From Gemmatimonadota bacterium (GTDB lineage: Bacteria; Gemmatimonadota; Gemmatimonadetes; Gemmatimonadales; Gemmatimonadaceae), in contig JAZKBK010000006.1 in the NCBI GenBank assembly GCA_040388625.1, positions 172,702-236,701 of the forward strand: a stretch of DNA of 64,000 nucleotides, written 5' to 3'. A program made the translations under genes and the position numbers. Positions 37,632 to 41,396 of this stretch are shown here, in pieces (positions within the stretch are counted from its first letter, which is position 1; every line of letters begins with the position of its first letter). The notes below the pieces were generated by a model, which did not search any database, was not told where the DNA came from, and saw only the letters and a list, made by a program, of their open reading frames with translations.

Positions 37632-38378
37632 CTACGAGGCCCTGAGCGCCTGGAGCAGCGCCGGAAGCGCGCCAATGACCCAGACGATGATCGCGGCAAT
37701 TGCCGCCTTCTGACGCGGAATTCGCGCCACGACGGACAGACCGATCGCGAGCAGCACGGTCACCCAGATCGTGAACAGGTCGATCCGGCTGAGAAGTCCG
37801 ACCAACACGGGCGACGCCGCGTCAGGATCCAGGAAACGCGCGGCACTCAGGCTCACGCGGTACTGGCCGTTGAGAGAAGCCGGGTCCATGACGAACGCCT
37901 GCACCACTCTGAGCAGTGAATCGAGGATGCGCGGGATGAACGCGTAGCAAGCGATCATGCATGCAGCACCTACGCTTTCCTTGGCATCCACGAACTTGCC
38001 CACGATCCACAGGATGACGCCCACGAGCAGTGGCATGATGATGGCGCCGACGCCAACCAGAACGGGAGTCAGCTTCTCCGCGAAGGCGCGCGAAGTCTGG
38101 ATCTGAGCATCTGTCAGCTGCGGGTTCTTTTTGGCCGCGGCCGCCATCCCGCGCGTGAACTCGGAGTCGAATATCGGTTGCAGGGCGGAGTGGCCAGCAA
38201 CCACTATGGCGACGGACAGGACTACGAAGACCGCCAAGGGGGCGAAAAAACCCGAGTCGCGCCGTCGCGCGAACACTTCGCTCGGCGACACGAAGATATC
38301 GATGAAGTCTTCCCACAGGCTCGCCGGCTTTGCGGACGTTGGCGGCGCGGACGTGCTGAGTTCGTCTGGGGCAGTCAT
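37632..38378 (-). CDS. YIP1-family membrane protein
   Basis: 248 residues from ATG 38378. A short Ser/Pro-rich N-terminus and WEDFIDIFVSPSEVFARR, the conserved entry of bacterial Yip1 proteins, are followed by five hydrophobic segments (for example FFAPLAVFVVLSVAIVVAG and IIMPLLVGVILWIVGKFV). The role of bacterial members is unknown; they are integral membrane proteins. Another start, 24 bases upstream, is possible. It is convergent with the aquaporin gene. Confidence 0.82.
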   Translation of the reverse strand: MTAPDELSTSAPPTSAKPASLWEDFIDIFVSPSEVFARRRDSGFFAPLAVFVVLSVAIVVAGHSALQPIFDSEFTRGMAAAAKKNPQLTDAQIQTSRAFAEKLTPVLVGVGAIIMPLLVGVILWIVGKFVDAKESVGAACMIACYAFIPRILDSLLRVVQAFVMDPASLNGQYRVSLSAARFLDPDAASPVLVGLLSRIDLFTIWVTVLLAIGLSVVARIPRQKAAIAAIIVWVIGALPALLQALRAS

Positions 38379-38499
38379 GATCCATGGGGTTGAGGTCCGC
38401 ACTACAGTGCACTAATGGCGGCGGGCACGCCAGGGGTGGACTTTTTGGCGGGCCACCTGCAAGATGTGACCGTGAGCCGCTCCAGTGGGTTAACCTAGC

Positions 38500-39279
38500 A
38501 TGGTGATTTCCGACGCTGCGGTCGTCAGCCGCATTCGCGATGGGGAGAGCGATGCCTTCGCGCTTCTCTTCGAGCGGTACCATGAACGTTGCGCCCGACT
38601 GGCGATGCGGCTGCTAGGCGACCCGGACGATGCCGCCGACGCGGTGCAGGACGCGTTCATCCGCGCCTATCTGTCACTTGACAGCTATCAGGAGCGTGAC
38701 CGCTTCAGCTCGTGGCTGCTCTGCATCGTCGCTAACAGATGCCGGTCGGCGAGCGATGCTGCGCGGCGTCGCGCAAACGTCGCAAGCGAATGGATGCGGG
38801 CTCATTCCGACGGTGGCCACGCGGCGGTGCTCCCACGCGAAGAAGACCATGCTCTGGCGCAACGATTGAGCGAGGCGCTGGAATCCCTGCCCGACGCCAC
38901 GCGCTCCGTCGTGCTCAGCAAGTACGGCGAAGATCGAAGCTACGAAGAAATCTCCGCCGACACAGGCGTTGCGGTTTCGGCGCTCAAGATGCGCGTCGCA
39001 CGTGGCTCGGCGCAGCTCCGGCGCACACTGGTCGGCGCGGGAATCACGCTCGCGACCGTTGCACTGATCTTCGTGACTCATACGCGAGACAACAGAAAGC
39101 CGAGGACCGCGACGGTCGTTGCGTGTGACACTCTGCGCGCGATAATGCACGACACGCTCGGTGCTTCGACGCGTGATTCGATACTGCCGCCGGGACGTTG
39201 CGGCGAGGATACACGTGCGCCGGCTCAGGAGCAGCGACTCCGCGACGTTCACGACCCACACCCAGGAACGGACTTCTGA
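38500..39279 (+). CDS. ECF-type RNA polymerase sigma factor with C-terminal membrane helix
   Basis: 259 residues. Sigma-70 region 2 (about 20-90: LLGDPDDAADAVQDAFIRAY, RFSSWLLCIVANRC) and region 4 (about 125-178: SLPDATRSVVLSKYGEDRSYEEIS and a helix-turn-helix) are clear. Ordinary ECF factors end here; this one continues with a hydrophobic segment LVGAGITLATVALIFVTH (about 177-195) and a 64-residue hydrophilic tail with two Cys and many charges. A membrane-tethered sigma factor is implied, perhaps self-restrained or released by proteolysis; no separate anti-sigma gene is adjacent. The stop overlaps the start of the DUF2723 gene (TGATG), so both are made together. Confidence 0.88.
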   Translation: MVISDAAVVSRIRDGESDAFALLFERYHERCARLAMRLLGDPDDAADAVQDAFIRAYLSLDSYQERDRFSSWLLCIVANRCRSASDAARRRANVASEWMRAHSDGGHAAVLPREEDHALAQRLSEALESLPDATRSVVLSKYGEDRSYEEISADTGVAVSALKMRVARGSAQLRRTLVGAGITLATVALIFVTHTRDNRKPRTATVVACDTLRAIMHDTLGASTRDSILPPGRCGEDTRAPAQEQRLRDVHDPHPGTDF

Positions 39280-41396
39280 TGACGCGAGATGTCAGAACGG
39301 GGGAGGCCCAGACTCCCCCGTACGCCTGGGGCGCGCTCGCCTCACTGTGTGTATTCGGGTTGTACCTCATCACGCTGTCACCGACGACGGCGATGTGGGA
39401 CACGAGCGAGTACATAGCGGCCGCAAAGGTACTCGGACTGCCCCACCCACCCGGCAATCCGTTGTTCGTGATGATCGCGCACGCATTTGGACTGATACCG
39501 ATACCGGTGTCCTACGCGGCGAGGATCAACATCCTCGCCGCTCTCTGCAGCGCGATCGCGGCCGGCTCCTGGTTCGTTCTCATCGACTCGGTGCTGGCGC
39601 GTGGTGGAGTCGCGGTACTGCGCCGTCGAATCTGCGCTGCAGCTGGCGTGGTCGTTGGCGCGAGCGCGTTTACCGTCTGGAATCAATCGGTCGTGAACGA
39701 GAAAGTGTACACGATCTCGCTCGCGCTGTTCGCGATCATCACACTGTTGATGCTCAGCTGGCTCGATGGAGACGGAAGGGCCAGGAACGATGCCAAGCTG
39801 GTTGCGATATCGTTTCTACTGGGTGCGGGCTACGCTGTGCATCCGGCCGGATTGCTCCCCGGACTCGCGGTGATAGTGACGGTCGCAAGCCAGCGATGGA
39901 GGAAATTCCTGCAGCCGCGTCTCGTGCTTGCAGTGTTCGGCGCGTTTGCGTTGGGACTGACGCCGTTCATCTTCGAGCCAATTCGCGCTGCGCAGGCGCC
40001 CGCGATGAACGAAGGCGCACCGACCGGTTGCACGACGAGACTCGAATGGTCCTGCACGTTCAGCGCGAAGACGTACACCAGGCTTTCCGACAACATCAAT
40101 CGCACTCAATACGGCAAGCCGTCGGTGACGGATCGCCAGATCTCGTTCGGCTCGCAGCTGGGAATGTGGTGGCTGTACTTCAAGTGGCAGTGGCTGAGAG
40201 ATCCGCACGGATCTGCACCGCTCACGCAGATGCTCCTGGCGCTCCTCATGTTCGGGCTCGGCATCTATGGAGCCACCGTGCACTGGCGATGGGATCGCGC
40301 CTCGTGCATCTACTGGGCGACCTTCATGTTCACACTGACGGTTCTGCTCGTCTATTACATGAACTTCAAGTACGGATACTCCCAGGCGCCGGGACTGGGT
40401 GATAGCGTGCCGCGCGAAGTACGCGATCGCGATTACTTCTACCTCTGGAGCTTCAGTGCGTGGGGCGTCTGGGTGGCGGTAGGGATTGCCGCGATCTGGC
40501 AGCGAGCGCGCACTGGCGGAGCATTGTTGGCGCTGGCGGCAATCCCGCTGATCGGAAACTGGAGCGCGGCATCGCGCCGGAACGATACGGTAGCGCGCGA
40601 TTGGGCCGTCGACATTCTCAACTCGGTCGAGCCGTACGGTGTGATCGTGACTGGCGGCGACAACGACACGTTTCCGCTCTGGTATGCACAGTACGTCGAA
40701 GGTGTGCGGCCAGACGTCACGGTAATCATCGACCAGTACCTCCAGATGGATTGGTTCGTCGAGCAATTACTGCGCGCGCCAATTCACAAGTACGATGCCG
40801 CCGCTGGCCCGGCGATGTATCGAACCGGCCACTGGCCAGTTCCAACCCATGCTGTATTTCGCATGACGGCGGCGCAGGCTGATTCCGTTCCCGACATCAT
40901 GGAGCTGCGCGAGCCTCAGTTGCTGAAGAGTGGAGCAATCGAGGGACGCATTGCAGCGGGCTACCTGGAGCGCAAGGACGTCTTCATCCTGCGTCTAATT
41001 ACGGACGCACTCCCCGAGCGGCCGGTGTATTTCACGATGGGCTCGCCATACCCGAAGCAGTTTGGTCTGCAGCGCTACATAATCGGCGAGGGACTCGTTC
41101 AGAAGTTGATGCCAACTCCGGTGTCGGATTCTGCCGGACCAACACTGGACACGCGCGGGACCGATGCACTATGGCGCATCTATCGTGGACCTGCGGCAAT
41201 AGTGCGTCGCGGCGACTGGATAGACAGACCGTCGTTGCCAACGCCTGTCGATTATACGCTTGTCGGGCTCAATCTCAGCGATGCGCTGGAGCACCAGGGC
41301 GATAGCGCGCGTGCACGCGCGGTGCGCAATGATGCGATCGCGGTGATAAAAGCGGCGCGGATGGAAGACATCTTCGGGATGACGAAGATGCCCTAG
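39279..41396 (+). CDS. DUF2723 membrane protein, protein O-mannosyltransferase-like (TMEM260 family)
   Basis: 705 residues from ATG 39279. N-terminal half has about ten hydrophobic segments. The signature MWDTSEYIAAAKVLGLPHPPGNPLF matches the DUF2723 entry motif (acidic residue, then HPPG-P-LF) in pieces such as LPHPPGNPLF. The C-terminal half is soluble with GVIVTGGDNDTFPLWYAQ. Eukaryotic TMEM260 of this family O-mannosylates plexin-type domains; bacterial members are presumed GT-C glycosyltransferases using lipid-linked mannose in the periplasm. It is coupled to the sigma factor gene. Its stop interlocks with that of the convergent pyrophosphatase gene in the palindrome CCCTAGGG. Confidence 0.87.
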   Translation: MTRDVRTGEAQTPPYAWGALASLCVFGLYLITLSPTTAMWDTSEYIAAAKVLGLPHPPGNPLFVMIAHAFGLIPIPVSYAARINILAALCSAIAAGSWFVLIDSVLARGGVAVLRRRICAAAGVVVGASAFTVWNQSVVNEKVYTISLALFAIITLLMLSWLDGDGRARNDAKLVAISFLLGAGYAVHPAGLLPGLAVIVTVASQRWRKFLQPRLVLAVFGAFALGLTPFIFEPIRAAQAPAMNEGAPTGCTTRLEWSCTFSAKTYTRLSDNINRTQYGKPSVTDRQISFGSQLGMWWLYFKWQWLRDPHGSAPLTQMLLALLMFGLGIYGATVHWRWDRASCIYWATFMFTLTVLLVYYMNFKYGYSQAPGLGDSVPREVRDRDYFYLWSFSAWGVWVAVGIAAIWQRARTGGALLALAAIPLIGNWSAASRRNDTVARDWAVDILNSVEPYGVIVTGGDNDTFPLWYAQYVEGVRPDVTVIIDQYLQMDWFVEQLLRAPIHKYDAAAGPAMYRTGHWPVPTHAVFRMTAAQADSVPDIMELREPQLLKSGAIEGRIAAGYLERKDVFILRLITDALPERPVYFTMGSPYPKQFGLQRYIIGEGLVQKLMPTPVSDSAGPTLDTRGTDALWRIYRGPAAIVRRGDWIDRPSLPTPVDYTLVGLNLSDALEHQGDSARARAVRNDAIAVIKAARMEDIFGMTKMP

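Follow-up and report, generated by a model that had tools for sequence, protein, structure and literature searches.

An ECF sigma factor gene that ends in a membrane helix and runs directly into a gene for a DUF2723 protein raises the questions of whether the fused form is genuine, where its C-terminal extension came from, and how a sigma factor tied to the membrane could be switched. These were addressed for one such locus in the window, by which we mean the whole 64,000-nucleotide stretch of the Gemmatimonadaceae contig analysed here. Both open reading frames were found exactly where the initial annotation had placed them, and its description of a sigma factor with a C-terminal helix and a 64-residue tail was borne out by the reading frame, Pfam, hydropathy and all four genomes of the genus (Table 1).

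Table 1. Features of the sigma factor locus, in coordinates of the window.
Feature	Position	Strand	Basis or remark
Divergent Yip1/YknW-like membrane protein	37632..38378	-	start 38378 chosen from alignment of starts
Predicted autoregulatory ECF promoter: -35 TGTGAC (38465-38470), 16-base spacer, -10-like GGGTTA (38487-38492)	38465..38492	+	motif conservation
ECF sigma factor with C-terminal membrane anchor, 259 aa	38500..39279	+	stop included
Sigma70 region 2, residues 23-90	38566..38769	+	PF04542, E 1.2e-16
Sigma70 region 4 (r4_2), residues 121-173	38860..39018	+	PF08281, E 2.5e-10
Membrane helix LVGAGITLATVALIFVTHT, residues 177-195	39028..39084	+	hydropathy; similarity to partner-protein helices
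Conserved outer juxtamembrane core, residues 196-234	39085..39201	+	invariant C209, C234
Weakly conserved last 25 residues, 235-259	39202..39276	+	pN 0.27-0.35
DUF2723/TMEM260-like protein, 705 aa, protein O-mannosyltransferase homologue	39279..41396	+	PF11028, E 8.3e-35

The first gene product has no sigma regions other than 2 and 4, which occur in this order and are both above the Pfam gathering scores; this places it among the ECF sigma factors. Its match to TIGR02937 reached 82 bits (cut-off 42.9), and among the more specific NCBIfam models the best matches were of the SigW type, far under their cut-offs. The helix starts four residues past the end of region 4 and is followed by the 64-residue tail (196-259), in which a Pfam scan found no domain. 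Judged from the sequence, the membrane helix belongs to the same chain as the sigma factor, and neither a retained anti-sigma domain nor a sizeable periplasmic regulatory domain was found by Pfam or by a six-frame scan of the locus. On the KD hydropathy scale, the helix peaked at 1.8-1.9 in the four genus members, inside the range of 1.66-2.62 seen for the helices of 35 partner proteins that are encoded separately beside related sigma factors (described below). Its crude centre-weighted insertion score was -0.03 to 0.20, compared with a median of 0.22 for the partner helices and a best score of 2.39 among the compared non-fused sigma factors. R196, R199, K200 and R202 lie on the outer side, and since charges flank the helix at both ends, the positive-inside rule alone does not fix the topology. 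In a structure model of the sigma factor (mean pLDDT 68.9, with confidence dropping past about residue 180 and low in the tail), the region 4 recognition helix continues into the membrane segment as a single predicted helix (residues 159-179), without a linker.

A search for the same fusion and gene pair in other genomes, as proposed in the initial annotation, recovered both in all four genomes of the genus in our collection (G000, G039, G040 and G041; the last three, which correspond to loci L050-L052, are Gemmatimonadetes assemblies from metagenomes), with the full 259-residue form kept at 77-99% identity. Among 394 genomes of the class, matches to the sigma factor at 1e-36 or better were present in 17. 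The alignment ran through to residue 256-259 only in the four genus members, and in four other genomes it passed residue 185, but across stop codons. The reservation that homologues might have no membrane helix thus holds outside the genus, and inside it the helix is present in all four. In the three well separated genus members, residues 196-234 gave pN values of 0.07-0.12 versus pS values of 0.60-0.72, a constraint similar to that on region 4 (pN 0.07-0.11). Purifying selection acts on this part of the tail. The draft state of the assemblies and the drift of the last 25 residues could be read as signs of an artefact, be it a frameshift, a misassembly or a decaying gene; such an origin is extremely improbable, given that the same frame is kept in four assemblies, three of them well diverged, and is under purifying selection. 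Frameshift and misassembly were ruled out on these grounds. The related concern that the tail is a separate anti-sigma gene joined by a frameshift is correct in so far as relatives do have a separate single-pass gene, but in this genus the fusion is real and under selection. Separately, the residues [DE]F precede the sigma stop codon in all four genus members (39265-39281 in the window); this ending may serve as a C-terminal degron or a PDZ ligand, or may only reflect the ribosome-binding context of the gene that follows.

The product of that following gene matched PF11028 with 120.6 bits (gathering score 24.2) and was similar in two stretches to the solved TMEM260 structure 9rql (E 5.5e-16); a stretch containing D..E and HPPG is conserved in the alignment. 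Homology to TMEM260, a protein O-mannosyltransferase, suggests that this protein, although bacterial, is a glycosylation enzyme. As first noted in the annotation, the sigma stop overlaps the start of the DUF2723 gene: the TGA (39277-39279) and the ATG (39279-39281) share one base, and in L052 the two codons abut. A longer start, TTG at 39198, was not favoured, as the overlapping or abutting ATG is kept in four of four genomes.

Outside the genus, 26 sigma factor loci (L024-L049) were examined. In 25 of them the gene after the sigma factor is a separate one for a single-pass protein, and the remaining locus (L026) ends at a contig edge. When the start codon closest to the sigma stop was taken as the start of the partner, 30 of 35 partners overlapped that stop (20 by 8 bases, 8 by 4 and 2 by 14), and the remaining five began 6-31 bases past it. 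The cytosolic part of the partners spans about 50 residues and is accompanied by a single helix and, next to the helix, a conserved GD[ST]..DTL stretch. Among the eight partners scanned with Pfam, four contained an AMPK1_CBM or CBM48 domain above the gathering score and none contained an anti-sigma domain. The overlap with the sigma gene, the single helix and the cytosolic part of about 50 residues point to the partner being an anti-sigma factor. The partner profile matched in 153 of the 179 genomes of the family at 1e-6 or better. Members of this widespread family lie beside ECF sigma factors (L136, L141, L135, L183, L184 and others), many of them with a CBM48/AMPK1-type glycan-binding domain, and we regard them as candidate glycan-sensing anti-sigma factors without a Pfam anti-sigma domain; a literature search for CBM48-type anti-sigma factors returned nothing on the subject. 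A second route of reduction was also observed, with the glycan-binding domain lost wholly or partly in the partners at L032:2018-2431, L042:1095-1496 and L143:782-1249; the first two belong to one genus, in which the partner has no CBM48/AMPK1-type domain and only 134-138 residues.

In a tree of 56 sigma factors, a clade of 44 (support 100/99) comprised the four fused sigma factors, 38 sigma factors of relatives and two paralogues from the genome of the window. The fused sigma factors group together at 100/100 on a long stem (1.58) inside this clade, and the tree leaves the position of the genus within it unplaced. Because a partner gene adjoins 39 of the 40 non-fused sigma factors of the clade (the 40th is L026), a separate sigma factor and partner are very probably the ancestral state. 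By this placement, the fused form is a derived state of the putative sigma/anti-sigma/glycosyltransferase operon and not an oddity of one genome.

The outer tail was then compared with the partner proteins. Residues 204-223 (ATVVACDTLRAIMHDTLGAS, 39109-39168) align without gaps to the juxtamembrane GD[ST]..DTL stretch of the partner, with an invariant D-x7-DT in register; 10 of the 20 residues are identical to L142 and 3-7 to the other eight partners of the profile described next. As good a score was reached by 29 of 40000 shuffles of the tail and by 3 of 32149 unrelated natural 20-mers. Against a profile of the nine partners most like those beside the glycosyltransferase, picked after they had been seen, the four tails scored 7.9-9.1 bits. 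The lower value was reached by none of 1500 shuffles in which the helix was kept and by none of 1500 in which everything was shuffled. Nine of 637 natural membrane segments attained it: one unrelated segment, four true partners and four taken to be the genus tails, three of them seen and the fourth presumed. When held-out true partners were trimmed to the helix plus 45 residues, 20 of 26 fell short of the lowest tail. Two further comparisons are weak as homology tests: with a 30-member partner profile the tail scores were matched by 7 and 11 of 1500 shuffles, and hhalign of the tail against the partner gave a probability of 10.8% (E 0.0028). In the six-frame scan, the whole sigma frame scored 1.0 and 3.8 bits and was not the top match, and no convincing hidden partner gene or domain was found in the other frames of the locus. 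On this evidence, which we grade as moderate, the helix and tail most likely descend from the helix and juxtamembrane stretch of the partner. The anchor could instead have been gained independently and the partner gene simply lost, which would agree with the weak profile-profile score and the outcome of the six-frame scan, and would allow the same present-day mechanism. We consider such an origin rather improbable in view of the natural-segment control, the 20-mer match with D-x7-DT in register, and the location of the helix right where an overlapping partner gene would start. The cysteines C209 and C234 are invariant across the genus, and any cysteine beyond the helix was present in one of the 35 separate partners.

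After deduplication, 40 regions upstream of sigma genes of the group remained, and the motif TGTGAC-N16/17-SRGTTR was identified in 29 of them, including four of four in the genus, compared with a mean of 0.09 and a maximum of 2 matches over 200 rounds of shuffling; the pattern was written after inspection of the sequences and one of the 29 has G for the first T, which makes the figure descriptive. Its place ahead of the sigma genes suggests that the sigma factor itself reads the TGTGAC motif. At the studied locus the start codon lies 8 bases downstream of the motif, a distance at which the sigma mRNA may be leaderless. The motif was absent at the loci of the two partner-bearing sigma paralogues in the genome of the window, and its distribution fits a sigma factor that mainly serves its own operon. 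A wider regulon defined by the exact motif was not upheld, as this genome contains a single other exact match (C6:572421), equal to and not above the control count. That match (L181, around 1501-1528) falls within an Ig-like repeat gene or next to it, just ahead of the gene for a secreted TPR-like protein, and is probably due to chance.

The explanation that best accounts for the locus as a whole, and which we hold to be fairly probable, is that the sigma factor carries a fused remnant of its anti-sigma factor, that the anchor silences it, and that proteolysis frees it to act on its own operon. The starting point would have been a sigma/single-pass anti-sigma/TMEM260-like operon. The sigma frame would then have fused with what was left of the anti-sigma gene, with loss of the cytosolic and glycan-binding sensor domains, and the membrane helix and juxtamembrane stretch of the anti-sigma factor would have become the C-terminus of the sigma factor itself. 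The -35-recognition helix is predicted to run without a linker into the membrane helix; we judge the tethered form to be inactive because promoter DNA would then lie against the membrane, and anchoring itself would keep the sigma factor off its promoter. A signal from the envelope, received by the conserved outer tail and perhaps by its cysteine pair, would permit site-1 trimming, and site-2 (M50) cleavage would then free the sigma factor. The freed protein would drive TGTGAC-N16-GGGTTA ahead of its own gene and, in consequence, expression of the glycosyltransferase. The conserved outer tail and its two invariant cysteines make it plausible that the tail itself senses the envelope. An M50 protease is encoded in the genome of the window and likewise in all 14 control genomes, so its presence is permissive only. 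The initial suggestion that the sigma factor may control glycosylation draws its support solely from the operon structure and from a motif compatible with autoregulation; the glycosylation activity is deduced from TMEM260 homology.

The sigma factor could also be active while tethered, with anchoring serving to bring operon transcription to the membrane, close to where the enzyme is inserted, and with its level set by autoregulation alone. No anti-sigma domain remains, the motif is consistent with autoregulation and the operon product is a polytopic membrane protein, all of which would suit such an arrangement. It is nevertheless unlikely, since in the model the recognition helix passes into the membrane helix without a linker, which would leave little room for promoter DNA, and an unregulated positive loop would not account for selection on the outer tail. 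Inhibition could otherwise be exerted in trans, by another CBM48-type partner or by the Yip1/YknW-like protein, with the tether only raising the local concentration. The genome of the window keeps partner genes beside two sigma paralogues (L183 and L184) together with a third, weaker match, and the Yip1/YknW-like gene adjoins the sigma gene divergently in L051 and L052 as well. YknW belongs to a SigW-controlled operon in Bacillus subtilis. We give inhibition in trans little weight, as both intact partners overlap their own sigma genes and the motif ahead of the fused sigma factor is missing from the L183 and L184 loci. Within the preferred explanation, that of an anchor-silenced sigma factor released by proteolysis, one speculative extension of low probability is that the exposed tail reads out the co-encoded O-mannosyltransferase, and that an unmodified tail (S/T residues, cysteine pair) is cut when enzyme activity or sugar donor is short. 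If this were true, the freed sigma factor would make more enzyme, and the protein would act as a one-protein thermostat for protein glycosylation.

ECF sigma factors fused to membrane segments are already known. IutY of Pseudomonas putida (ECF243) likewise combines an ECF sigma factor and a membrane-spanning regulator in one chain, with the helix C-terminal, and is activated by removal of its periplasmic part (PMC5411451; PMC8999054). IutY differs in its length of 374 aa, in a periplasmic anti-sigma domain of large size and in working with an outer-membrane receptor; in the protein described here only 64 residues lie past the helix, and the adjacent gene encodes a glycosyltransferase homologue. 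According to PMC5411451, Prc and RseP release IutY, and RseP suffices for variants whose periplasmic part is shortened to about 50 residues or fewer; by analogy, the present tail, with 64 residues of which the last 25 drift, would lie just above this RseP-only size. The review in PMC8999054 describes the extensions of ECF36, 48, 52, 53, 115, 243 and others as thought to be processed, some of them seemingly derived from anti-sigma fusion. Among these, ECF48, ECF52 (SCO4117) and ECF53 of Actinobacteria have C-terminal membrane extensions thought to be anti-sigma-derived, and SCO4117 has a periplasmic carbohydrate-binding domain, similar to the partner proteins of relatives here (PMC8999054). These extensions, of up to 400 residues, keep a zinc-finger domain that is likely the anti-sigma, and the membrane-bound ECFs described in that source retain an anti-sigma domain, whereas the fused sigma factor has neither an anti-sigma nor a sensor domain. 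The sigma and CBM48-type partner operons of the same Gemmatimonadota family resemble the fused locus in their sister sigma factors, common promoter motif and, often, a TMEM260-like gene downstream, but they encode two proteins instead of one, the partner comprising a cytosolic part and, in many cases, a glycan-binding domain as well. What looks new is an anchor that was kept while every recognisable anti-sigma domain was lost; no anchored ECF without such a domain was found in the literature covered (PMC8999054, PMC8103513, PMC7406223 and PMC5411451), and a described case may exist. Set beside its relatives in the same bacterial family, the locus offers a before-and-after view of a membrane switch of two proteins becoming one protein with the anchor kept and the inhibitory domain lost, and it makes the question of whether membrane anchoring alone silences a sigma factor directly testable.

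The literature search returned nothing on the regulation of bacterial TMEM260-like enzymes, and the word DUF2723 was not found in the literature searched. TMEM260-like genes matched in 173 of the 179 genomes of the family at 1e-60 or better. Upstream of the gene in the best 26 loci outside the genus (L134-L159, with 1.5 kb flanks), a sigma factor and partner were present in 10, a partner at a contig edge in one, an M56 (BlaR1-type) protease in six, and neither in nine, including L137, which is short of upstream DNA. Bacterial TMEM260-like enzymes are tied in this way to envelope-sensing regulators: a sigma factor with its partner in some genomes, the fused sigma factor in the genus studied here, and an M56 protease of the BlaR1 type in others. 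In a tree of 37 TMEM260-like sequences built by a quick method, the genus falls together with sequences both with and without the sigma/partner pair, which indicates that the operon was rearranged more than once. The M56 protease gene precedes the TMEM260-like orthologues in L139, L146, L148, L150, L157 and L158, and in the one longer locus that was fetched (L178:4278-5868) a gene of the penicillinase-repressor (BlaI) type lies ahead of it.
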